In this document: piece by piece, positions 47,904 through 62,809 of the stretch
How positions within the stretch are numbered: the first letter of the stretch is position 1
Layout of the letters: every line of letters starts with the position of its first letter
NCBI RefSeq assembly: GCF_030518215.1
Contig: NZ_JAULRT010000052.1
Span: forward strand, 248,001 to 312,000
Length of the DNA: 64,000 nt
From: Gilvimarinus algae
GTDB taxonomy: Bacteria; Pseudomonadota; Gammaproteobacteria; Pseudomonadales; Cellvibrionaceae
Reading direction: 5' to 3'
The notes under the pieces: model-generated
Told to the model about the DNA's origin: nothing
Database searches by the model: none
What the model saw: the letters and a program-made list of their open reading frames with translations, nothing else
Translations under genes and position numbers: made by a program

Positions 47904-49307
47904 TTAGCTGAAATAGCCGTGCAGATACCAGGCGGGCGATGACAGTTTGTCGCCTTGTGCCAAAAAAACCCATAGCCATGCTCCCTGCCGATTGCGGGCG
48001 ATGTAGTAATCGCGAATGACGCTATTCTGGTCCCACCAGCCAGTGGTAATGCGTTCGGGCCCCGTGACTATCGACAAGGGGTCGCGGTAAAGGCGGGGCG
48101 TTTTAAGTAGCAGGCTTGGTCTCAGTGCCAGGGCAGTGTCTGCGGTGACTGTGCCCGTGCCCGGTTGCGGAAAAGCCACACATTCAGGTCGGTGATCATC
48201 GGCCAGCGGGACGTACCCGAGGGCTTCGGCTCCGAGCTTGGCGCGCAACAGTGCGATGAGTTCGGCCCGGTTGCACGGGCCGCTGGCCTGGTCGAATAAA
48301 TCCCGATGCTCCGGTGAGTCGCAGTATCCGGGGTCGGCCCGCAGGGTAAAACCGGATGCCGGCGTGTCAAGATGAACCGACTCGAACTTTACATCGAGCA
48401 GACGCTGCCACACCCGAGCGCGGCATTCTCCTCTACCGGCTTCGATGCGAACGACTTTCGGCGCGAGCTGGTGTTGGTGCAGCGTCAGGCTGAACGCGTC
48501 GGTGACCTGTGCGCGGGCTTTTAAAAACTGCTCCAGCGATGTCAATGAGCGCTGTACATACTCGCGCAGTAAAAGACTTGTGCTCAGCTCCCAGGGCAGC
48601 TCCCGGTAATGCTCAAAGTAAGCCGGGGGCGCAAAATAATGAACAGGCGATGCCTTTTGGCCAGTGAGGGTGCGCAAGTAGCTTATGCTGTCTCTGTCCA
48701 GCCGGTTGGCCAGCTCGCTCATGGGCAGCTGCAGTAACTCGGCAAAGCGAAACAATCCGAGCTGGTGTAATTGGGAGAGTGTTTTGGCCGGCAGCTCGCT
48801 GTGCTGCAGGGCAATCCACTGCCACTGCTGCTCCAGTGGCTCGGGGGCGGTGTCGAGGCAGGCCTGGCCGGCACGCGCCATTAATCGTGCGTTGGCAGGT
48901 CGCAGGCCCGTGGCCGGGATAACCTCTACCTGCTCCGCGTTGAGCAGCCGCTCCAGCGTGCTCCAATAACGCGTAAAGCCGCCGTAGTAACGCAGCATCG
49001 ATTCGGCTTTAAACAGCAGGCCATCGGGCTCAAACAGCATAATCTCCGCCGAGGCTGCGTAGAGTTGCCGTGCCATCTCGTGTAGCCGCCGGGTGTTTAA
49101 TTCGGCGTTATAGGGGATGACTTCAAGTTGTCGGCACAGTGAGCTGGCCATGGCCAACCCCATGGCCGGCGTTAAGCCGGCGGCCCGGGCGGGCCCATTC
49201 AGCTGTACCAGCGTATGGCTGCGCTCGCACACAAGAGCCCGTGGTTGTTCGGTTGGCGCCAAGCTGTTCAGCTGCAAGGCCGGAAAATGCAGGTAAAGCC
49301 ACAACAT
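47904..49307 (-). CDS. imuB: Y-family polymerase-like protein ImuB
   Basis: 467 residues resembling Y-family polymerases but with the first active-site segment changed (LYLHFPALQLNSL instead of a D-x-x-x-F motif), so catalysis is not expected. In known systems ImuB is the hub that binds the beta clamp and ImuC (DnaE2). I could not spot a clear clamp-binding motif by eye. It follows imuA by 3 bases. Confidence 0.93.
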   Translation of the reverse strand: MLWLYLHFPALQLNSLAPTEQPRALVCERSHTLVQLNGPARAAGLTPAMGLAMASSLCRQLEVIPYNAELNTRRLHEMARQLYAASAEIMLFEPDGLLFKAESMLRYYGGFTRYWSTLERLLNAEQVEVIPATGLRPANARLMARAGQACLDTAPEPLEQQWQWIALQHSELPAKTLSQLHQLGLFRFAELLQLPMSELANRLDRDSISYLRTLTGQKASPVHYFAPPAYFEHYRELPWELSTSLLLREYVQRSLTSLEQFLKARAQVTDAFSLTLHQHQLAPKVVRIEAGRGECRARVWQRLLDVKFESVHLDTPASGFTLRADPGYCDSPEHRDLFDQASGPCNRAELIALLRAKLGAEALGYVPLADDHRPECVAFPQPGTGTVTADTALALRPSLLLKTPRLYRDPLSIVTGPERITTGWWDQNSVIRDYYIARNRQGAWLWVFLAQGDKLSSPAWYLHGYFS

Positions 49308-49310
49308 GGG

Positions 49311-49988
49311 TTAGATGCTCTGGAGGTGATGTGGCTGTAACGGGCGGCTGTTGTTGGGGATGGCGCTGGATAGGGCCAGATCGGGCCAAAGCTGCTGCCA
49401 GCCAATACATACCGGGCCTGCGGGCCAGCCCCCTTTGCGCTTGGTGATACTCACCTCCAGCCCCTTTGCTCTGGCTTGCAGCCGGAGGCTGAGTGTCAGC
49501 GGTAGTGATAGGGTGGTAGGCTGGGCCTGCATGATCCACAGGCAAGACTGCCCCTTGGCGGCCGCCAGCTGCAGGCGTTTTACGTCACTGAGGCGGATGG
49601 CTTCCTGCCAGAGGATGACGGCATTACAGCACCCGCTTTGCAGGCACTCCCGGGCGGTCCACAGCTTCTGCGGCACGCTCTGGGTCTCTATGCTCAGCAA
49701 TTGCTCTGCGGCGACCCCCCTGGCTTGCCAAAAGTCCGGATAGGCACTGCCGGGGGGGGATATAAACACCGATAATTTGGCCGTTTCGCTCAGCAGGCAG
49801 GGCAATAACAGGCGCAGTTCACCAATGCCCGGTGTGCTTCGTATACGGCAGACCCCCACTCTGGGGAAACCGCCGCCGAGCAGTTGGTCCAGAGGGGTAA
49901 AGCCGCTGGGCTGCAGGGTGCCCGGCGGCGCAAGGTCTCGCCCGCGATGAATAAGGCGGCTTTTCAGCAGTTGATCAATAGTGTGCAT
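49311..49988 (-). CDS. imuA: Translesion synthesis protein ImuA
   Basis: 225 residues of the RecA/SulA-like ImuA family. It has the RecA-like opening GFTPLDQLLGGGFPRVG, but the Walker A region (STPGIGELRL) lacks the Lys-Thr/Ser pair. It heads the imuA-imuB-dnaE2 cassette and has a LexA box 13 bases before its ATG. It is thought to help position the mutasome. Confidence 0.92.
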   Translation of the reverse strand: MHTIDQLLKSRLIHRGRDLAPPGTLQPSGFTPLDQLLGGGFPRVGVCRIRSTPGIGELRLLLPCLLSETAKLSVFISPPGSAYPDFWQARGVAAEQLLSIETQSVPQKLWTARECLQSGCCNAVILWQEAIRLSDVKRLQLAAAKGQSCLWIMQAQPTTLSLPLTLSLRLQARAKGLEVSITKRKGGWPAGPVCIGWQQLWPDLALSSAIPNNSRPLQPHHLQSI

Positions 49989-50096: not shown

Positions 50097-50678
50097 TCAG
50101 GGTTTGTCGATTTCGCCGCGGTCCAGGGCGCCGATATCCAGGAAGGGCGAAGCGTCGAGTTTGTGCGCATCCATCATTTCGGCCACCCGCTGCAGGGAGG
50201 CGATGATCATGCTCTGCTCCCAGTTGTCCAGGCCCTTAAAGCGCCGGACAAAATCGTCCTGCAGGGCCGTGGGGGCGTTTTCGAGGATTTTCGCGCCTTT
50301 GTGGGTGAGTTGAGGATAGACCTTGCGTTTGTCCTGCTGAGAGCGCACCCGGGTAATCAGCTCACGTTTTTCCAGTCGATCTAATACAGTGGTGACGGTC
50401 GCCTGAGACAGGCTCATGTCCCGGGCCAACTCGCTGATGGTCATATCGCCTTTGTTGTTGAGAATTTGCATCAGCAGCAGCTGTGGACCGGTCACGTTGG
50501 CGGTTTTTACCAGCTTCTTAGAGTGCAAATCGGTTGCCCGGATGACCCGGCGCAGGGCCACCAGTACTTCTTCTATCTTGTCCATGGCGGTTCTCTGATG
50601 GGAAAGCGCGAAATTATAAGCAGCTTTTGCTTCGAGTCCTAATCTTTGCTCGGCCTGGGGCTTGATCGCCTGTGCCAT
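50097..50678 (-). CDS. ectR: MarR-family regulator EctR
   Basis: 193 residues with a MarR winged HTH (ISELARDMSLSQATVTTVLDRL and the wing RVRSQQDKRKVY). It is divergent from ectA, the arrangement of EctR1 in halophilic methanotrophs, where it represses the ectoine operon. AAGGTGA before the ATG at 50678 supports this start; an upstream ATG at 50735 adds a poor N-terminus. It probably binds the operators at 50738-50775 and also controls itself. Confidence 0.9.
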   Translation of the reverse strand: MAQAIKPQAEQRLGLEAKAAYNFALSHQRTAMDKIEEVLVALRRVIRATDLHSKKLVKTANVTGPQLLLMQILNNKGDMTISELARDMSLSQATVTTVLDRLEKRELITRVRSQQDKRKVYPQLTHKGAKILENAPTALQDDFVRRFKGLDNWEQSMIIASLQRVAEMMDAHKLDASPFLDIGALDRGEIDKP

Positions 50679-50723: not shown

Positions 50724-50775
50724 TGGACAGCTCAATATCCTTAGTGTACTATAGATTAAAGCTTAGATCACTAAG
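50724..50775 (+). promoter_or_regulatory. ect promoter with two EctR-type operators
   Basis: TGGACA (50724-50729), 17 bases, then TACTAT (50747-50752) form a sigma70-type promoter. TCCTTAGT-GT-ACTATAGA (50738-50755) overlaps the -10; its core TTAGTGTACTATA matches, as I recall it, the pseudopalindrome bound by EctR1 in Methylomicrobium. A second, similar site CTTAGATCACTAAG (50762-50775) covers the predicted start. CTTAGTG/CACTAAG are also perfect outer repeats. Confidence 0.7.
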
Positions 50776-50901
50776 TAATGATTTTGGCGTTTAATGCTGA
50801 GTTTTGCTTAAAAAGACAGGAATTCAGTGATTTTGCCTAATTTTTGTCATGAAAGGTGTTTAGGTTCTTCTATTAACTGCATAGAGAAAGAAATACTTGA
50901 T

Positions 50902-51399
50902 ATGCCAGATCCTGACTCGATCGACTTGCGACACCCCACCGCCGAAGACGGTTACACCGTCCATCAGCTGGTAGAGGCCAACCCGCCTCTCGATCCCAAC
51001 TCCATTTACTGCAACTTGCTGCAGTGCTCGCACTTTGCCGATACCGCTATCGCTGCGTTTAAGGGAGAGCAAATGGTGGGTTTTGTCTCGGGCTATATCC
51101 TGCCCAATGCGCCCCATACCCTTTTTGTTTGGCAAATTGTGGTGGATAAGGCGGGGCGGGGCGCGGGCCTGGCCAAGCGTTTGGTAAAGGCCCAGCTGGC
51201 CAGTGACGCCTGCAAGCAGGTGACACACCTTCACACCACGATTACGCCGGACAATGAGGCCTCCTGGGGGTTGTTCAAATCTCTGGCGAGAGATCTGGGG
51301 GCCGAGTTGAACAGTCATGTTCATTTCGACAAACAACGACACTTTGGCGGTGTTCACGACGACGAGCACTTGCTCGAAATCGGTCCGATACAGCGTTAA
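50902..51399 (+). CDS. ectA: L-2,4-diaminobutyrate acetyltransferase
   Basis: 165 residues of the GNAT fold. It acetylates diaminobutyrate with acetyl-CoA, the second step of ectoine synthesis. The acetyl-CoA region is DKAGRGAGLAKRLVKAQL, and the N-terminus reads LRHPTAEDGYTVHQLV, typical of EctA. The ATG at 50902 is chosen over 50827 by length and homology. First gene of the ect operon. Confidence 0.96.
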   Translation: MPDPDSIDLRHPTAEDGYTVHQLVEANPPLDPNSIYCNLLQCSHFADTAIAAFKGEQMVGFVSGYILPNAPHTLFVWQIVVDKAGRGAGLAKRLVKAQLASDACKQVTHLHTTITPDNEASWGLFKSLARDLGAELNSHVHFDKQRHFGGVHDDEHLLEIGPIQR

Positions 51400-51448: not shown

Positions 51449-52723
51449 ATGAATATTTTCAACGAAATGGAATCGGAAGTTCAGTCCTACGCCCGTTCAT
51501 TCCCGGTCGTATTCAATAAAGCAAAGGATTGTTTTCTCTACGGCGAAGATGGCAAACGCTATATTGATTTTCTCTCTGGCGCCGGCTCTCTGAACTACGG
51601 TCACAACAATGATGCCCTGAAACAGGCGCTGTTGGAGTATATCGCTGAAGATGGCATTACCCATGGCCTGGACATGCACAGTGCGGCTAAAGCTCGCTTT
51701 CTCGAAGTGTTCCGCGACAAGATCTTGCAGCCGCGAGATATGGAGTATGTCTTGCAGTTTACGGGGCCTACCGGCACCAACGCCGTTGAAGCGGCACTGA
51801 AAATTGCGCGTAAAGTGACCGGGCGTACGAATATTATCTCGTTCACCAATGGCTTTCACGGCTGCTCACTGGGTGCGGTAGCCGCTACCGGTAATCAGCA
51901 CCACCGCGGTGGCGCCCAGGTGTCGTTGAACGATGTTGATCGTATGCCGTTTTGTGGCTACTACGGCCGCGATGTGGACACCATTAAGATGATGGACAAG
52001 CTGTTGTCTGACCCGTCCAGCGGTATTGATAAGCCGGCGGCAGCCATTGTCGAGGCGGTTCAGGGCGAGGGTGGCTTGAATGTGGCCAGCACCGATTGGC
52101 TGAAAGCTTTGCAGGCACTGTGTAAAAAGCACGACATTTTGTTGATCCTGGATGATATTCAAGCCGGCTGTGGCCGTACGGGAACCTTCTTCAGTTTTGA
52201 GCCAGCGGGTATTGAGCCGGACATTGTCACCTTGTCCAAATCCCTGAGTGCGTATGGTTTGCCCTTTGCGGTAGTGATGATCAAGCCCGAGTTGGACAAG
52301 TGGTTGCCAGGCGAGCACAACGGTACCTTCCGAGGCAATAATCATGCGTTTGTGACAGCCGCCGCGGCGATTGAGCACTACTGGAGCAATGACGAACTGG
52401 AAACTGATATCAAAGAAAAGGCCAAGATTGTCAGTGCTCGATTCAAAAAAATTGCCGAAACCCACGGCGAGACCACTTTGCGCCTGAAGGGGCGGGGTCT
52501 GATGCAGGGCATCGATTGCAAAACCGGCGAGCTGGCGGCCAAAGTTTGTGCCAAGGCCTTTGAAAACGGTGTGGTCATTGAAACAGCGGGTAACCACAGC
52601 CAAATTGTGAAGTGCTTCTGCCCCCTGACTATCAGCGTTGACGCTTTGAACGAAGGCCTGGATAAGCTGGAGCAAAGTTTTGCCGAAGTGTTTGAGGCAG
52701 AGAAGCTGAAAAAAGCCTCGTAA
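51449..52723 (+). CDS. ectB: Diaminobutyrate--2-oxoglutarate transaminase
   Basis: 424 residues, class III PLP aminotransferase. It makes L-2,4-diaminobutyrate from aspartate semialdehyde and glutamate. The PLP lysine is in [26 protein letters not shown] precedes the ATG. It lies 49 bases after ectA; a terminator hairpin follows it. Confidence 0.97.
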
Positions 52724-52745: not shown

Positions 52746-52771
52746 ATGGCGGCCGCACGGTCGCCATTTTT
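52746..52771 (+). terminator. Intrinsic terminator between ectB and ectC
   Basis: ATGGCG (52746-52751) and CGCCAT (52762-52767) form a stem extended by G-T and CG pairs inside, directly followed by TTTTT (52767-52771). It has full rho-independent form and lies 29 bases before ectC within the operon. It should let only part of the transcript reach ectC and ask. Confidence 0.75.
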
Positions 52772-52799: not shown

Positions 52800-53198
52800 A
52801 TGATTGTTAGACGTTTGAAAGATGCTGAAAAATCCGGTCGTAAAATTGTCTCCGAGGGCTGGGACAGTACCCGCCTCCTACTGAAAAACGACAATATGGG
52901 TTTTTCCTTTCATATTACGACCATCTATCGCGATGCCGAATTACACCTTCATTACCAAAACCACCTGGAGTCGGTGTATTGCATCAGTGGCTACGGCTCT
53001 ATCGAAGATCTCGCCGACGGCAAGGTATACCCCATTGAGCCGGGCACTTTGTACGTATTGGATAAGCACGACAAGCATATTCTGCGCGCTGAAGAAGAAA
53101 TGAAAATGGCCTGTGTATTTAATCCGCCTCTGCATGGAAAAGAAGTGCACAACGCTGAGGGTGCCTACGAGCTTGATGCCGAGGAGGTGAAGGATTGA
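52800..53198 (+). CDS. ectC: L-ectoine synthase
   Basis: 132 residues, cupin-fold enzyme that closes N-gamma-acetyldiaminobutyrate to ectoine. [20 protein letters not shown] is the typical start, and the metal-binding cupin segments [16 protein letters not shown] and [18 protein letters not shown] are present. GGAG precedes the ATG. No ectoine hydroxylase (ectD) follows. Confidence 0.98.
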
Positions 53199-53243: not shown

Positions 53244-54680
53244 ATGAACCATACGGTAGAGAAAATTGGCGGCACCTCCATGAGCGAATACGAGGCGGTG
53301 CGAGACAATGTGATTCTAAAGGGCAACAACAGCAACGATATCTATCAGCGGGTTTTTGTGGTGTCCGCTTACGGTGGCATGACGGATCTGCTGCTGGAGA
53401 ATAAAAAGAACGGCAAGCCGGGTGTGTATGGCCTGTTTGCCAATACCAGCAGTGGTGACGAGTGGCGTGAGGCCTTTGACGCCTTGCGCCAGCAGATGTT
53501 TGCGATGAATCAGTCACTGTTTGGCGAGACGGAGTTGGGTAAACAGGCGGACGAATTCATCTCTGAGCGTCTGAACGATGCCGAGCGAGTGTTGAGTGAT
53601 CTGGAGCGCCTGTGCCAGCATGGGCACTTTGAGCTACAGGCACACTTGTTTACAGTGCGGGAGATGCTCGCGAGTCTCGGCGAGGCCCACAGTGCCTGGA
53701 ACATGACGCACCTGCTGCAGCGCGATGGCATCAATGCCCGCTTTATGGACTTGTCCGGCTGGCAGGCCGATGGAGCCGAAAGCCTGGACAATATGATCAC
53801 CAAGTCCTTCGCCGGCGTGGACTACGCCAGTGAATTGCCAATTGCCACGGGCTATACTCACTGTGATAAGGGCCTGATGGCGAGTTTTGACCGGGGCTAT
53901 AGTGAGATGACATTCAGTCGAATCGCTGTGTTAACGGGTGCCAGAGAAGCCATTATTCACAAAGAGTATCATTTGAGCAGCGCCGATCCGCGCCTTGTGG
54001 GAGCCGATAAGGTTGTGCCCATTGGCCGGACAAACTACGATGTGGCCGACCAGCTGGCCAATCTCGGGATGGAAGCCATTCATCCGCGAGCGGCCAAAGG
54101 CTTGCGTCAGGCCGATATCCCGCTGCGGGTAATGAACACCTTTGAACCTGAGCACTCGGGCACGCTGATCACTGGCGATTATGTCAGTGATCAGCCGCGG
54201 GTTGAGATCATTGCCGGGCGGCGCCGAGTCTACTCTATTGAGTTGTTCGATCAGGATATGATGGGCAGTATCGATGAGTACGACACCGCCATTTTGAAAA
54301 CTGTGGCCCGTTTTAAGGCCCATGTGGTGAGCAAAGACATCAATGCCAATACCATCACCCACTATGTCGGAGCCAATTTGAAAACTGTGAACCGTATCCG
54401 TCGCACTCTGGAGGAGCTCTATCCGGATGCAGAGATCAACACCCGCAAGGTGGCCGTGGTGTCTGCTATCGGTAGCGACATGAAGGTTCCCGGCATGTTG
54501 GCGAAAACGGTATCGGCTCTGTCGGAGGTAAACATCAGCATCTTGGCTATGCACCAGTCGATCCGCCAGGTCGACATGCAGTTTATCCTCGATGAAGACG
54601 ACTATGATCTGGCTGTGCAGAGCCTGCACCGCTGTTTGATTGAGGTGCACGATCACGGAGAAGCAATATGCGCAGCCTAA
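53244..54680 (+). CDS. ask: Ectoine-specific aspartate kinase
   Basis: 478 residues of the Ask_Ect group. The kinase start VEKIGGTSMSEYEAVRDN is a variant of the usual KFGGTS, and there are two C-terminal ACT regions. It supplies aspartyl phosphate for the pathway and is less feedback-inhibited than housekeeping enzymes in known Ask_Ect cases. It follows ectC by 45 bases and overlaps the TPR gene by 13 bases. Confidence 0.95.
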   Translation: MNHTVEKIGGTSMSEYEAVRDNVILKGNNSNDIYQRVFVVSAYGGMTDLLLENKKNGKPGVYGLFANTSSGDEWREAFDALRQQMFAMNQSLFGETELGKQADEFISERLNDAERVLSDLERLCQHGHFELQAHLFTVREMLASLGEAHSAWNMTHLLQRDGINARFMDLSGWQADGAESLDNMITKSFAGVDYASELPIATGYTHCDKGLMASFDRGYSEMTFSRIAVLTGAREAIIHKEYHLSSADPRLVGADKVVPIGRTNYDVADQLANLGMEAIHPRAAKGLRQADIPLRVMNTFEPEHSGTLITGDYVSDQPRVEIIAGRRRVYSIELFDQDMMGSIDEYDTAILKTVARFKAHVVSKDINANTITHYVGANLKTVNRIRRTLEELYPDAEINTRKVAVVSAIGSDMKVPGMLAKTVSALSEVNISILAMHQSIRQVDMQFILDEDDYDLAVQSLHRCLIEVHDHGEAICAA

Positions 54681-55570
54681 AGGTGTTGGCGCTGGTTTTC
54701 CTGGCGCTGATGCCGCTGTCGGGTCTGGCTCAGTCCGGGTCCGACAGCAGCGAAACGACCGAGACAAGGGACGAGGCGGCTCAGGACAGAAATGCCCGGG
54801 AAACCGTGGAGAATCTTGAAAAGCCTCTCTACAATCCTTTTGTCGAGCGCTATGTGCTGGACGAGTTGAAACTGCTGCGCAGCGAAATGGCGCAGCAACG
54901 GGTTGAGCTGACCGAAAAAATTGTCGATCGGCAAATGGACTCCATCGATCGCGGAGTCAGCTACGCCACCAATACCATTACTTATTTCTTCTATCTGATC
55001 GCCGGGGTCAGCTCCATTCTGGTGCTGGTTGGCTGGACATCCGTACGCGATATTAAAGAGCGCATGAATAAGATTGCCGACGAAGAGGTTGGCAAGCTTG
55101 TCGAAACTTATGAAAAGCGGCTTGAGGCCATTGAACGGCAGCTGACGCAAAAGACCCGTCATATCGACGCAAACCGTGAAGAAATCGAGCGAACGCAGGA
55201 GCTTCATGCACTCTGGCTGCGGGCGGGCCAGGAAACGTTGTCCGCCAATAAAATCGCCATCTACGATCAAATTCTGGACATACGCCCCGATGATTGTGAA
55301 GCCTTGACCTACAAGGCTGATGAGGTTCTGGAACTGGGGGAAGTGCAGTGGGCCATTAACCTGTGCCAACAGGCCCTGACGATCGACCCCGACAATGCAC
55401 ACGCTTTTTTCCAGCTGGCCTGTGCCAAGACCATGCTGGGAAATTACGATCAGGCCATTCACTACCTGCGTGAGACGGTGAAGCGTTCTGATACCTACAG
55501 AGAGTCCATGACCGAAGACCCTGCGCTAGAGCCTCTTTACGGCATGGAAGAGTTCAAGGCCCTGTTATAA
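54668..55570 (+). CDS. Membrane-anchored TPR protein of the ectoine operon
   Basis: 300 residues: a signal peptide (1-21), an acidic then helical region, one transmembrane helix (about 103-124), a coiled coil (125-185) and two TPR-like units (about 190-270) with the C-terminal end-of-group form MTEDPALEPLYGMEEFKALL. The TPRs would be cytoplasmic. It overlaps ask and precedes a BCCT transporter, so it probably helps couple solute synthesis or transport at the membrane. No named family is recognised. Confidence 0.85.
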   Translation: MRSLKVLALVFLALMPLSGLAQSGSDSSETTETRDEAAQDRNARETVENLEKPLYNPFVERYVLDELKLLRSEMAQQRVELTEKIVDRQMDSIDRGVSYATNTITYFFYLIAGVSSILVLVGWTSVRDIKERMNKIADEEVGKLVETYEKRLEAIERQLTQKTRHIDANREEIERTQELHALWLRAGQETLSANKIAIYDQILDIRPDDCEALTYKADEVLELGEVQWAINLCQQALTIDPDNAHAFFQLACAKTMLGNYDQAIHYLRETVKRSDTYRESMTEDPALEPLYGMEEFKALL

Positions 55571-55580
55571 ATCGTCTGCT

Positions 55581-55606
55581 TCCAAGCCAGGAAAACCTGG
55601 CTTGGA
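55581..55606 (+). repeat. Perfect 11-bp hairpin between TPR and BCCT genes
   Basis: TCCAAGCCAGG (55581-55591) and CCTGGCTTGGA (55596-55606) pair perfectly around the tetraloop AAAA. No T-tract follows, so it is not a standard terminator. It could stabilise or process the mRNA between the two genes. Confidence 0.55.
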
Positions 55607-55655
55607 GGCTTCCCAAAGAATAATCACACATGCACAGCCCCGGCAGGAGGAGTCT

Positions 55656-57275
55656 ATGCTAGAAAAATTGGGTAACCGCCTGCAATTGAGTGCAATACCG
55701 CAGATATTCTTTGTATCTGTAGGGATTATTGTGCTTTTTATTGGTTTTGCTGTGCCATTTCATGAAGCCTTCGCTCGTTTTTTCGATGTGCTCGGTCAGT
55801 TTACGTTTACACGATTTGGGTGGTTTTATGTATTGAGCGTCAGCGGTCTGCTGCTGTTTCTTTTCTGGGTGGCGGCCAGCCGCTACGGTAGCATTCGTCT
55901 GGGGCCTGATGATCAAGGTCCGGAGTACGATACGCTCACGTGGTTTTGTATGTTATTCGCCGCTGGCATTGGCACCATATTAATGTTCTGGGGCGTGGCC
56001 GAGCCCATGTATCACTTTGCCAGTCCTCCCTACGGCAATGTAGAAAAAGAAACAGTGGGGGCAGCCAAGGTGGCCATGCAGATTTCCATGTTTCACTACG
56101 GCTTGCACACCTGGACAATTTTTACCGTACCGGCACTGGCCATAGGGTATTTTTCCTACCGCCAGGGTTTGCCCATGCGCATCAGCAGTGTGTTTTACTC
56201 CGTGCTGGGGGATCGTATCTACGGGCCGCTGGGCTGGACGATCGATATTATTGCCGTGTTGGGTACCTTGTTTGGCGTCGCCGTTTCAGTCGGCCTTGGC
56301 ACCTTACAGATCAACAGCGGTTTGCATTATCTTGTGGGCGTGCCCGACACCGAGCTGGCCAAGATGCTGATTGTGGCTGTGATTACCGGCGTGGCCACGG
56401 TTTCTGTGGCGCTCGGCCTGGATAAAGGTATTAAACGGCTCTCTGAGTTCAATATAGTGATTGCGGTAGCCATTTTGCTGTTTATCTGGTTTTCTGGTCC
56501 GACACTGTTTATCACCGAGGGAATGGTGCAGAACCTCGGCATGTATCTCGATCGCCTGCCATGGATGTCCTTTTGGACAGAAGCCTATAGCGACGCGGAT
56601 TGGCAGCGCAGCTGGACGGTGTTTTATTTCGCCTGGACGATTTCTTGGGCGCCCTACGTCGGTATCTTTATCGCCCGCATTTCCAAAGGGCGCACCATTC
56701 GCCAGTTTGTGGTCGGTGCTCTGGGCGCGCCATTGCTGTTTACCCTTGTTTGGTTCTCGGTATTCGGCTTGGCAGCCATTGATCTTGAGTTAAATCACGA
56801 TGTTCCGATTGCCAGCGAAGTGCAAGAGGACGTTTCCGTGGCGCTCTTCTCGTTTTTGGGGAATTTTCCGGCAGCCGAATTGGTTTCGGCACTGGCGTTG
56901 GTGGTCATTGTCGTTTTTATTACTACTTCGGCCGATTCGGCGGCTCTGGTGGTCGACTTGCTCTCACGTAAAGATCGGCAGCCTTCGAAAACGGCGCAGC
57001 GCGTCTTCTGGACGCTGCTGCTCGGTGCGACGGCGGCCACCTTGTTGTTGGGCGGCGGCTTGACAGCGCTGCAAAATGTGATCACGGCACTTGGCTTTCC
57101 CTTTTGTGTTCTCCTGGTGTTTATGGCGATATCGCTGACGCGAGCGCTGCATGCCGACTACCTCGGCTATACCATGAAGGAGCTGGCTGAAGGCAAGGCA
57201 CCCCCCATGCATCCCATGGGGTCACTGCCCAGCGAAGCAAAAGGCCGTAGCACCCATAACCCTGAAGACTCCTGA
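55656..57275 (+). CDS. BCCT-family compatible-solute transporter
   Basis: 539 residues with about 12 membrane helices. The BCCT signature WTISWAPYVGIFIARISKGR is in helix 8, and AAGIGTILMFWGVAEP in helix 3 matches the glycine-rich ion/substrate segment. It is a Na+- or H+-coupled importer for betaine, choline or ectoine; the substrate cannot be fixed by eye. GGAGGAG precedes the ATG at 55656. Last gene of the ectoine region. Confidence 0.93.
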   Translation: MLEKLGNRLQLSAIPQIFFVSVGIIVLFIGFAVPFHEAFARFFDVLGQFTFTRFGWFYVLSVSGLLLFLFWVAASRYGSIRLGPDDQGPEYDTLTWFCMLFAAGIGTILMFWGVAEPMYHFASPPYGNVEKETVGAAKVAMQISMFHYGLHTWTIFTVPALAIGYFSYRQGLPMRISSVFYSVLGDRIYGPLGWTIDIIAVLGTLFGVAVSVGLGTLQINSGLHYLVGVPDTELAKMLIVAVITGVATVSVALGLDKGIKRLSEFNIVIAVAILLFIWFSGPTLFITEGMVQNLGMYLDRLPWMSFWTEAYSDADWQRSWTVFYFAWTISWAPYVGIFIARISKGRTIRQFVVGALGAPLLFTLVWFSVFGLAAIDLELNHDVPIASEVQEDVSVALFSFLGNFPAAELVSALALVVIVVFITTSADSAALVVDLLSRKDRQPSKTAQRVFWTLLLGATAATLLLGGGLTALQNVITALGFPFCVLLVFMAISLTRALHADYLGYTMKELAEGKAPPMHPMGSLPSEAKGRSTHNPEDS

Positions 57276-59350: not shown

Positions 59351-61828
59351 CTAGAATTGCTCCACCACCAGCCGTATTCCAACATTCTCGTGGTAGGTGT
59401 GTTGCGGTTGGTAGCTTCTCGCGTAGACACGCAGTTCTTGTGCGTCGTCTTTCAGTGAGCCGCCGCGCACTACTCGTGCGGGGCAGTTGTCCTGATTAAA
59501 GGCTTCTGGGTTCTGGCCCGCATTTTGATAATTTTCCCGGTAGCAGTCCTGTACCCACTCGGCAACGTTACCGGCGGTATCGTGTATTCCAAATGCGTTG
59601 GCCGGAAATTCACCCACAGGGGCAGTTTCCCCGCTAAAAAGCCCGGTGTATGAGCTGTCACAGTAACGCCGGCAGTTGGCTTTTCCGGCTGCCTCTCGCG
59701 CTGAGTCGCCCCACCAGAAGGCGCTTTCTTTACCGCCACGGGCGACGTATTCCCACTCGGCTTCGCTCGGCAGGCGATAACGTTTGCCTGTCTGATCACT
59801 GAGCCAGTCGGCGTACATCTGCGCCTCTTCCCAGCTGACATTGATTACCGGTCTGTTATCACGTCCCCAGCGGTTGTCGCCCGGTAGCGGCATGGATTGA
59901 TGGTTGGCAAAACGCTCGTATTGGGCGAAGGTGACTTCGTATTTGCTGATGGCAAAGTCGCTATCGATTGTGACCTGGTGCACCGGGCTGGCGTTTTCAT
60001 CCGCACCGCCCATGGCAAAACTTCCTTCAGGGACTACCACCATGACCGGGCCTTTGCCCCCGTCTTTCAGCGAGTCGCTAAATTCACTGCCGGGTGAGCG
60101 AGAGGCGAGTAATGAGACTTTGTGGTTCAGGTCTGCCTCTTTGATACGCACCCATTCCAGATACTTGCGATAGCCCGGGTGGGTGACTTCAATATGGTAG
60201 TTTCCGGGTTTGAGTGCCATGGCGTCGGTGTACTTTTCGCGAATGTTCATCACACGCACCCGCGCTTCGCTGGGCGTTGGCGAAACCGTAAGAGCAAATC
60301 TCTGGGCGACTTCAGGCTCGCTTGCGCGACTGGAAGCTTCACTGACGCTGAGCGCTTCTGCAGGGGTTGCAGGTGCCGGCTCTGAGCTGGCCGAGGATGA
60401 CGCTTGAGCCGGCTCTACCGTAGATAGGAGCGGGACAGGCTCTTCACTCGGCATATTTGAATTGGTTTCAGTGCCGGCTTGCGTGTCGGCGGCAATGCTG
60501 TCTGTGTCCAGTTTTGTATCCAGGTCAAAGGCGGGCGTACTGGCGCTGGAAATCTCCGCGTCTGAGTGTTCAGTGGCACTGGCGGGTTCACTGGCTGCAG
60601 AGCGGGCGCTTTCATCTGAACTCTTTTCGCCAGTCAGGAGCGGCGTTGACGGTGCTGTGGGCTCATCGTGTCCCAGCCAGGCGAGCAACACAATGCTCAG
60701 CCCAACGAGTGCCAGCGCGCTCATCAGAATCATGCGCTGGCGGGTCGGAATGTCGCGCCAGAATCTGAGCCAAGCGGGCCCGCCAAACTGGCGGTGAATA
60801 CGGGTTTCGACCAGGGTGTTTTGCTGGGTGAGACTGTCAGAGAGTGATTGCTGAACCGTGGCAACCCGGTGAAAACCTCTTGCTTTGGAATACCGCAGCG
60901 AGCCGAGAAACGCGAGCCCCTGGCGCAGCTGGCTATTCAGCTTGGAGCGAATTTTACGCAGCAGGACACTGAACAGATTGCCGAACTGGCCTGCCAGGCC
61001 GGCACCGGATGCCAAAGATTGCTCGCCCTGATCGCGCATTAGCAATTGCAGCACTTCGATATCTGCCACCAAGTCCAACCCGCGCTGATAGCGACGCGCC
61101 GGGTCCTTATCGAGCAGTTTGTCCAAAATCGGCTGAAAGCGGATAAATTGAGCCGGCAGGGTGGGCAGGGGCGAGGCCAGGTGTTTGAGAGCGATGGAGA
61201 CGGCCTCCTCACCTTGATAGGGCACGGCCCCGGTGAGCATCTCGTAAAACACAATACCCAGGCTGTAGAGATCCGAGCGGGCATCGACCGCCTTGCCGCG
61301 GGTTTGCTCCGGACTCATATAGTGGGGAGTACCCACCACGGTTCCGGCGTGGGTGGCCCGCGAGTGCGTCGCCTGAGCCCGGGCCACACCAAAATCGGTG
61401 AGTACGGCCGAGCCGTCATCGCGGAACAGGATGTTCTCCGGTTTGATATCCCGATGCACGTACCCCTTTTCATGGGCGTGATCCAGCGCTGAGCCAATTT
61501 CCTTGAGGATACGCAGGGCTTGCTCGGCGCCGATGCCCGAGAGCATCTTGTCGTGAATGGAGCCGCCGGGCAGGTAGTCCATGGCAATGTAGTTGTAATT
61601 GTTGTGTCGACCAATGTCGTAGATGGACACGATATGCGGGTGGGATAATTGGCCGACGATGTTGGCCTCGCGCTGAAAGCGCTCGCTAAACGTCGGGTCG
61701 CCATTGAGCGCGGGGGACATGACTTTCAGAGCCACCACCCGCCCCACACTTTCCTGAATAGCAAGGTACACAGTGGACATGCCGCCGTGGTTGATCTTGC
61801 GAATGATTCGGTATCCGGGTATCTGCAT
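59351..61828 (-). CDS. Ser/Thr kinase with PEGA and FGE-sulfatase domains
   Basis: 825 residues. Cytoplasmic Hanks-type kinase (about 5-265): G-loop NHGGMSTV, Lys35, HRDIKPEN (125-132) and DFG (145-147), so catalytically intact. A juxtamembrane region, one helix (366-385), an Ser/Glu/Ala-rich linker, a PEGA-like domain (about 515-580, LKPGNYHIEVTHPGYRKY) and a formylglycine-generating-enzyme-type domain (595-822, RVVRGGSL) follow outside. It resembles PpkA-like kinases, but no type VI secretion genes are near. It is paired with PP2C. Confidence 0.92.
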   Translation of the reverse strand: MQIPGYRIIRKINHGGMSTVYLAIQESVGRVVALKVMSPALNGDPTFSERFQREANIVGQLSHPHIVSIYDIGRHNNYNYIAMDYLPGGSIHDKMLSGIGAEQALRILKEIGSALDHAHEKGYVHRDIKPENILFRDDGSAVLTDFGVARAQATHSRATHAGTVVGTPHYMSPEQTRGKAVDARSDLYSLGIVFYEMLTGAVPYQGEEAVSIALKHLASPLPTLPAQFIRFQPILDKLLDKDPARRYQRGLDLVADIEVLQLLMRDQGEQSLASGAGLAGQFGNLFSVLLRKIRSKLNSQLRQGLAFLGSLRYSKARGFHRVATVQQSLSDSLTQQNTLVETRIHRQFGGPAWLRFWRDIPTRQRMILMSALALVGLSIVLLAWLGHDEPTAPSTPLLTGEKSSDESARSAASEPASATEHSDAEISSASTPAFDLDTKLDTDSIAADTQAGTETNSNMPSEEPVPLLSTVEPAQASSSASSEPAPATPAEALSVSEASSRASEPEVAQRFALTVSPTPSEARVRVMNIREKYTDAMALKPGNYHIEVTHPGYRKYLEWVRIKEADLNHKVSLLASRSPGSEFSDSLKDGGKGPVMVVVPEGSFAMGGADENASPVHQVTIDSDFAISKYEVTFAQYERFANHQSMPLPGDNRWGRDNRPVINVSWEEAQMYADWLSDQTGKRYRLPSEAEWEYVARGGKESAFWWGDSAREAAGKANCRRYCDSSYTGLFSGETAPVGEFPANAFGIHDTAGNVAEWVQDCYRENYQNAGQNPEAFNQDNCPARVVRGGSLKDDAQELRVYARSYQPQHTYHENVGIRLVVEQF

Positions 61829-61834
61829 GGTGGC

Positions 61835-62686
61835 TTAGCGAAAAATCCAGTAGAGCAGTGCCACAAGCGCAAACAGAGCCGTAGCGTAAATCACCCCATC
61901 CAGCCGGCGGCTGTGGGTAAAAACAGGCACCCAGTGCGACAGGGCGGGCAGCAGGGCTCGGCGCTGAGTTGGCGCGGCGATCACCTGCACGGTCACATTG
62001 TCTCTGCCGCCAGCTTTGAGGGCCTCGGCGACCAGCTCGCGGGTGGCCTCGGCCGGGGTGCGACACTGCCTGAGAATGTGCTCGATGTCTCTGCCGCTGA
62101 GCTCGTCGGTCAAACCATCGCTGCACAGCAATAACCATTGCCCCTGGTGCCAGGGGCGAGTCACGGTATCAACGCGCACTTCATCCAGCTCCTGGGAGCC
62201 GAGGCACTGAGTAATGATGTTCTTGTCAGGGTGATTCTCGGCGTCTGCTGGCTCAATTGCGCCGCTCTCAAGCAGCATTTGCACGTAGGAGTGATCGGTG
62301 GTGAGTTGTTCAAGCTCTCCGCCACGGGAGTAGGCGTAGGCGCGGCTGTCACCGACCCAGGCAACATCGTAGTGGTCGCGCCGGTGCCGTATGGCCACAA
62401 CGGTCGACCCCATGCCCTGGGCGCCCACCCCTTGCTCGGCCGCCTTGAGCACGGCCCGGTGAGCCTCCTGAATCAGTCCGGGCAGGGCTTTGCCGGGGGA
62501 TTTGTCGAAGGTTTCACGGACGATGGCGCTGGCGACTTCACCCGCTTCGTGGCCGCCCATGCCATCCGCTACCATCCACAGGCCGTGCTCGGGCAGGCTG
62601 AGGAAGCAATCCTCATTGTTGCTGCGCTTGCGCCCTGGATTGGTCAGGGAGCTCGATTCCAGAACCTGCATAGCTGGCTTGTTCAT
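61835..62686 (-). CDS. PP2C-family Ser/Thr phosphatase
   Basis: 283 residues with the metal-binding motifs NNEDC, VADGMGGHEAGE, CSDGLTDELS and GGRDNVTVQV of Stp/PppA phosphatases, and a C-terminal membrane helix (about 262-282). It precedes the kinase gene by 6 bases and should reverse its phosphorylations at the membrane. The start may be 62686 or 62671; ribosome-site evidence is weak. Confidence 0.93.
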   Translation of the reverse strand: MNKPAMQVLESSSLTNPGRKRSNNEDCFLSLPEHGLWMVADGMGGHEAGEVASAIVRETFDKSPGKALPGLIQEAHRAVLKAAEQGVGAQGMGSTVVAIRHRRDHYDVAWVGDSRAYAYSRGGELEQLTTDHSYVQMLLESGAIEPADAENHPDKNIITQCLGSQELDEVRVDTVTRPWHQGQWLLLCSDGLTDELSGRDIEHILRQCRTPAEATRELVAEALKAGGRDNVTVQVIAAPTQRRALLPALSHWVPVFTHSRRLDGVIYATALFALVALLYWIFR

Positions 62687-62809
62687 CCTGATGGTCAACC
62701 TCTGCCCGGACACGGGGCCGGGCGATGACTTTACCTGTGTTATAACCTGTCGCCTCAGCGGACCGGCGTTTTTATAGATTAGCACGCCCGTGCAGGCACG
62801 AATCGAAGT

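Follow-up and report, generated by a model that had tools for sequence, protein, structure and literature searches.

A Predicted Membrane TPR Protein Linked to the EctR-Type Regulator and the Ectoine Operon in Many Marine Gammaproteobacteria

Ectoine operons are among the best-studied operons of the salt response and of biotechnology. The closest described systems are the ectR-ectABC-ask_ect clusters, known with EctR1 in Methylomicrobium alcaliphilum and with CosR in Vibrio, which in the text of the accounts available to us have the same regulator type, enzymes, and gene order as the locus analyzed here. In the available portions of two reviews, the components of ect clusters are given as ectABC, ectD, ask_ect, ectR, and carriers, without a gene for a tetratricopeptide repeat (TPR) protein (PMC5924519, PMC7876524), and the first of these, from 2018, describes the cue sensed by EctR as not known. 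The 2018 review (PMC5924519) has neither "TPR" nor "tetratricopeptide" anywhere in its main text, and the genome paper of Microbulbifer sp. CCB-MM1 lists, in its available part, a regulator, ectABC, and ask and leaves the TPR protein unmentioned (PMC5501506). In four further papers, ectoine and tetratricopeptide are both present as unconnected subjects in the text available (PMC12491435, PMC8269258, PMC11968832, PMC5812351), and no description of a TPR protein in ect operons was found in the open-licence literature.

A gene for such a protein was found at the end of the ectoine operon in the window, the whole stretch of 64,000 nucleotides of Gilvimarinus DNA that was analyzed (Table 1). The gene order is ectA-ectB-ectC-ask-TPR, followed by a BCCT carrier, with ectR (marR) divergent from ectA. 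The original prediction that the TPR open reading frame (ORF) overlaps ask and precedes the carrier was confirmed, in that the last 13 nucleotides of ask are shared with the start of the TPR gene and the BCCT ORF is the next one downstream. The ect enzymes of the window matched Pfam or NCBIfam models above their cut-offs, while the MarR protein matched the general MarR family and owes the name EctR to context and homology. The carrier scored above the cut-offs of Pfam BCCT and TIGR00842 and below that of the glycine-betaine equivalog. The hairpin in the TPR-BCCT intergenic region was absent in the same form from the intergenic regions of seven other Gilvimarinus, some of which fold into other stems; with this hairpin and the likely BCCT start, coexpression of the TPR and BCCT genes is no more than plausible. 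By eye, an ImuA/ImuB-like pair (SulA-like and Y-family polymerase-like ORFs; 47904 to 49988, minus strand) was seen upstream of ectR, as was a serine/threonine kinase-like protein adjoining a PP2C-like phosphatase gene (59351 to 62785, minus strand); the C-terminal part of the kinase-like protein resembles a formylglycine-generating-enzyme-type domain.

Table 1. Coordinates of the ectoine locus features in the window
Feature	Position	Strand	Remarks
EctR-type MarR regulator, divergent from ectA	50097..50678	-	ORF opens at 50735; likely ATG 50678
EctR-box-like site TCCTTAGTGTACTATAGA	50738..50755	+	3 mismatches to the EctR1 operator in the sequence that we take it to have; 0 expected by chance in the window
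ectA, diaminobutyrate acetyltransferase	50902..51399	+	TIGR02406 above cut-off; ORF opens at 50827; likely start, residue 26
ectB, diaminobutyrate transaminase	51449..52723	+	TIGR02407 above cut-off
ectC, ectoine synthase	52800..53198	+	ORF opens at 52746; profile match from residue 19
ask_ect, aspartate kinase	53244..54680	+	NCBIfam PRK09181 above cut-off
TPR gene	54668..55570	+	300 aa; ORF opens within ask ORF
14-bp RNA hairpin, TPR-BCCT intergenic	55578..55609	+	Strong, no T-tract; z, -2.8 for the folded stretch
BCCT carrier	55656..57275	+	ORF opens at 55602; most likely start, ATG 55656

The TPR ORF is a real gene, since homologues align with it at 34 to 79% identity, and these, with their conserved positions, rule out a chance ORF; the nearest named relatives are in Gilvimarinus species (73 to 78% identity), followed by Marinimicrobium (63%). 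The protein comprises a signal sequence (about residues 1 to 21), a part predicted to be periplasmic (about 22 to 103) that contains a conserved PLYxPFxERYxLDE box, a membrane helix (about 104 to 123), a helix predicted to be cytoplasmic (124 to 188), and the TPR domain (about 190 to 299). Only two hydrophobic stretches, residues 1 to 24 (the signal) and 103 to 126, were found in a 53-row family alignment read in 17-residue windows, and an SPase-I-like motif, in a loose pattern, occurs in 99 of 120 sequences. Lysine and arginine number 2.1 per 18 residues before the membrane helix versus 3.4 after it (120 sequences), a modest positive-inside bias that fits a cytoplasmic TPR domain. On hydrophobicity and this bias, the protein may be a type I (N-out) single-pass membrane protein, its TPR domain probably lying in the cytoplasm. 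In the 53-row alignment, variability is lowest in the membrane helix (mean entropy, 0.90 bits, versus 1.48 bits in the TPR domain and 1.55 to 1.67 bits in the long helices), which suggests that the protein makes specific contacts within the membrane, with itself or with a partner.

The protein belongs among the TPR repeat proteins both by profile scores above cut-offs and by the TPR-type hairpins of its structure model. The Pfam models TPR_17 (38.3 bits; cut-off, 24.4), TPR_1 (36.2 bits; cut-off, 27.8), and TPR_2 (also above its cut-off) matched within residues 211 to 264, and NCBIfam TPR_END_plus (52.1 bits; cut-off, 32) matched residues 246 to 300. The AlphaFold2 model (mean pLDDT, 88.2; pTM, 0.57) has helices at residues 57 to 120, which include the membrane span, and 123 to 188, with a conserved Gly-Trp as the break between these two long helices, and the hairpins at residues 192 to 299. 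A helical hydrophobic period is clear in the periplasmic helix (9 of 1,000 permutations as strong) and weak in the cytoplasmic helix (77 of 1,000). The signal, single helix, and TPRs first proposed for this protein stand, the TPRs being cytoplasmic by prediction, and the proposed coiled coil is supported in part. The adaptor-like layout, too, is borne out and, as far as the open-licence literature goes, lies outside the described ectoine pathways.

Matches to a profile of the protein family were found in 111 of the 390 genomes of the order and in 72 of the 144 of the taxonomic family. Of the 12 matches among the 274 genomes of a class sample, one is the genome of the window and one covers the TPR part only, which leaves 10 clear ones. 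A phylum sample of 60 genomes included 45 from other classes, and none of these matched. The gene co-occurs with ectoine synthase. Among the 390 genomes, 102 have both the TPR gene and ectC, 9 the TPR gene only, 99 ectC only, and 180 neither, which puts ectC in 102 of 111 genomes with the TPR gene versus 99 of 279 without it (odds ratio, 20.6; Fisher P = 2e-26; relatedness uncorrected); the class sample has ectC in 8 of the 10 clear TPR genomes versus 38 of 274 overall. An EctR-like MarR, called at an E threshold of 1e-30 that may admit paralogues, is found in 108 of the 111 TPR genomes versus 125 of the 279 order genomes without the TPR gene (relatedness again uncorrected); when only ectC genomes are counted, 100 of the 102 that have the TPR gene carry it, versus 70 of the 99 that do not. 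The presence of this MarR in those 125 genomes indicates that EctR does not need the TPR protein. Seven of the eight TPR genomes with the MarR and without ectC gave a MarR match only at 1e-64 to 1e-67. Three TPR genomes (G025, G088, and G397) gave no EctR-like match, and G025, which has ect genes and the TPR gene, is rated 100% complete.

Among the 179 genomes that carry the gene, flanks were read at 160 loci, 2 of which (L188 and L224) are contig edges, leaving 158 informative loci; a TPR-only match in G582 (L223, 59 bits) was excluded from all locus counts, and L037 to L039 were omitted as copies of L040, L041, and L046. MarR, ect, and carrier genes were sought by tblastn at 1e-6 with few query proteins, so that divergent ones can be missed. 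The TPR gene stands behind codirectional ect genes at 109 loci, divergent from a marR-ectABC unit at 13, divergent from an EctR-type marR alone at 13, and with ask alone at 2, one of which has a broken TPR gene; 21 loci have no link to ect, ask, or marR, and 15 of these belong to a sister clade. Membership in the ectoine operon, as originally predicted, is thus supported by 122 of the 158 informative loci, at which the gene lies in, or divergent from, an ect operon; this conserved linkage, which is one of position and not of function, runs through many families and extends far beyond close relatives. A scattering of homologues with no tie to osmolyte genes fails for the main clade, where linkage is kept at 122 of 143 loci, and the sister clade is unlinked.

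EctR is the most constant neighbor of the TPR gene. Of the 135 loci with ect or marR genes, 131 have an EctR-type marR, as against 121 with ectA and 102 with ask; by arrangement, marR is found at 105 of the 109 ect-operon loci, at all 13 divergent loci, and at all 13 marR-only loci. Two loci (L132 and L155) have ect genes and the TPR gene with marR absent at the locus. One locus with an interrupted TPR gene (L236, genome G221) retains marR and ask, and ectC was not found in that genome; this apparent decay of an ect operon fits a dependence of the TPR gene on the pathway, as a single case.

The window resembles the EctR1 cluster further in that an EctR1-operator-like site lies between marR and ectA, the reference being what we take to be the EctR1 operator sequence. 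With this presumed operator, and with its divergence from ectA, the regulator has the marks of an EctR/CosR-type MarR protein. The box overlaps a -10-like hexamer, and promoter-like matches in the region are no commoner than in shuffles (5 versus 5.4). Of the 113 regions upstream of marR that were compared, 106 belong to TPR loci and 7 to ect loci elsewhere; an EctR-like box with at most 4 mismatches occurs in 43 of the 113 versus 0.8 expected from shuffles. At the marR-only loci, a different conserved palindrome (at most 3 mismatches) is present in 12 of 13 regions versus 1 of 100 other regions and adjoins marR on the side facing the TPR gene. With the boxes and palindromes, the TPR gene remains accessible to EctR-type control in each of three arrangements of the genes.

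With this linkage and these sites, it is very likely that the TPR protein is a genuine component of the EctR/ect regulon, and it very probably represents an undescribed part of the salt response in many marine bacteria. That it is a membrane adaptor that docks a soluble client is a reasonable expectation of somewhat better than even standing. Our overall reading, to which we give a probability of roughly 0.4, is of an inner-membrane adaptor dedicated to the EctR/ectoine regulon, with EctR as the favored client. The identity of that client is the more doubtful part, and EctR is put forward tentatively. The neighbor most tightly coupled to the TPR gene is ask, by gene overlap, and the carriers vary by family; EctR, the most constant neighbor, remains beside the TPR gene in one family at loci that lack ect and ask, which places it slightly above Ask/EctABC. 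Next in this order would come a general envelope role and then the carrier. EctR had no part in the original prediction, which considered a tethering of the synthesis enzymes or a control of the transporter.

In the adaptor that we propose, the signal sequence would place a short helical segment in the periplasm, and the strongly conserved helix would span the membrane and leave the TPR domain, perhaps as an oligomer, in the cytoplasm. The periplasmic and membrane part may respond to changes of the envelope or membrane on osmotic upshift, or it may merely anchor the protein. The TPR domain would dock a cytoplasmic client, preferably EctR, whose capture at the membrane would relieve repression; as the adaptor itself would be made from the EctR-controlled operon, a feedback would result. 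The strongest form of this proposal, in which an osmosensory membrane-spanning adaptor is the missing input of EctR and captures or modifies it through the TPR domain as the envelope or membrane changes at high salt, seems to us improbable, and we know of no such signaling route for any MarR-family osmoregulator. In any case, these operons carry a conserved terminal membrane gene in many marine Gammaproteobacteria, and a membrane protein that accompanies EctR makes the question of the EctR cue directly testable.

The alternative that survives best, though we consider it unlikely, is an enzyme scaffold, in which the TPR domain would recruit Ask_ect and/or EctABC to the membrane and channel or protect intermediates; if true, it would offer a means of steering flux in strains that produce ectoine. 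Among 103 measured loci, 91 have a TPR start codon that overlaps the ask stop codon, the overlap being 13 nucleotides in 50 loci and 16 in 27; the start was taken as the ATG nearest the ask stop, a rule that favors short distances, yet these two values recur in 77 loci. Moreover, ask is present at 102 of the 109 ect-operon loci, and L049 keeps an intact TPR gene and ask without ectABC at the locus. A protein dedicated to these enzymes is harder to reconcile with the 7 remaining ect-operon loci and the 13 divergent loci, none of which gave an ask match, or with the 13 marR-only loci, at which the TPR gene has no ect or ask gene nearby. At five loci (L121, L120, L125, L044, and L228), a small DksA/TraR-like zinc-finger gene was seen between ectC and ask, in three of them beside ectD.

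A rather unlikely account is that of a general envelope or stress adaptor, whose ancestral membrane housekeeping role was captured by the ect operon for its usefulness under salt. It draws on the sister clade, in which 10 of the rows lacking ect linkage group together with support (SH-aLRT, 99) in a tree of 56 chosen rows, 17 of whose 53 inner branches are open; loci outside the trees were assigned to a clade through relatives. The other 46 rows comprise all 36 ect-linked ones, six scattered unlinked ones, three marR-only ones (one clade), and the single ask-only one. Sister-clade genes are single and adjoin genes of unrelated function. Large replicons of Vibrio, Salinivibrio, and Pseudoalteromonas carry homologues, too (20 records; 81 to 99% query coverage and 35 to 45% identity for those named by PGAP "tetratricopeptide repeat protein" in Pseudoalteromonas and "alkyl sulfatase dimerization domain-containing protein" in Salinivibrio). 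These homologues differ from the ect type in that a direct search of five of their flanks, 7 kb on each side and two of them lacking a gene table, gave no ectABC, ask, EctR-type marR, SSS (sodium:solute symporter), or BCCT match. In a second tree of 52 of the 56 rows and 5 plasmid rows, the Pseudoalteromonas protein groups within the sister clade (SH-aLRT, 91), and the Vibrio and Salinivibrio proteins form a group of their own. The TPR protein thus reaches beyond ect loci, and its tie to the regulon is that of one clade.

When 10 sister-clade representatives were compared with the ect clade, leaving out L188 and L236 (broken gene), 51 positions were conserved in both, of which the TPR domain has 26 and the periplasmic part 13; the ect clade has 33 further conserved positions, the TPR domain holding 11 of these and the membrane helix 10. 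This pattern is compatible with a client kept from the ancestor in both clades and also with one that has changed. Because most core TPR residues are retained even in the sister clade, which has no ect linkage, the docking surface may have a more general use. The dedicated adaptor is favored over this account by the main-clade linkage, which survives rearrangement from the operon end to the divergent and marR-only arrangements, and by G221, a single case, in which ectC was not found and the TPR gene is broken. In sister-clade family f42 (L211 to L213), the proteins matched as two overlapping pieces, which suggests an insertion or a repeated stretch in the long-helix region.

Quite improbable is a transporter partner, that is, a TPR protein that controls or assembles the adjoining osmolyte carrier (BCCT, SSS, or ABC importer). 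A carrier gene of one of the three families sought follows within 400 nucleotides at 71 of 160 loci (49 SSS, 9 BCCT, and 13 branched-chain-type ABC), and SSS genes occur also at 5 of the 13 divergent loci; TPAT (TatT), as described in the available text, is a TPR protein found in assembly with the binding protein of a TRAP transporter and thus a precedent for a TPR protein beside a small-solute transporter (PMC5812351). A specific client, however, should not switch between unrelated folds as the carrier family does here, and TatT is a periplasmic lipoprotein of a binding-protein-dependent system, unlike the ect protein with its predicted cytoplasmic TPR domain. A special tie to the BCCT carrier, suggested by the window, is not supported, as the 109 ect-operon loci have BCCT within 400 nucleotides downstream in only 9, SSS in 49 (53 with SSS anywhere in the locus), and neither in 51; even among the 7 other Gilvimarinus loci, BCCT is next in only 2 (L034 and L035), the others having uvrB (L031, L036, and L053) or neither (L032 and L033). 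In family f19 (L152, L156 to L158, L160 to L166, L168, and L170), the TPR gene is divergent from an EctR-type marR and has a branched-chain-amino-acid-type ABC importer next to it downstream, and the six genomes of this family with an ectC locus read have ectC without an ectA or ectB match nearby.

Compared with known TPR proteins, the dedicated membrane adaptor that we favor has an ordinary TPR domain, and its TPR likeness is uninformative as to the client. Comparison with solved structures by sequence and fold gave generic TPR matches only (about residues 160 to 300), the best fold matches including the TPR domains of CHIP, SGT, RPAP3, and SycD (Z, 15 to 16; about residues 172 to 295); the membrane and long-helix parts were barely covered, and we claim no new fold. 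Among profiles of known families, no equivalog scored above its cut-off: LapB (PRK11788) reached 19.7 bits (cut-off, 363), MamA reached 34.9 bits (cut-off, 200), and the SycD equivalog missed its cut-off. The client-binding TPR fold is held in common with MamA, SycD/PcrH, and CHIP/SGT, the match being confined to the TPR part. LapB (YciM) is a small inner-membrane-anchored adaptor with cytoplasmic TPRs that brings its client to the membrane, and the ect TPR protein is alike in its predicted layout, with a membrane anchor and cytoplasmic TPRs, although its score falls far below the LapB cut-off. With the ect protein, a putative membrane TPR adaptor is newly tied to a known regulon.
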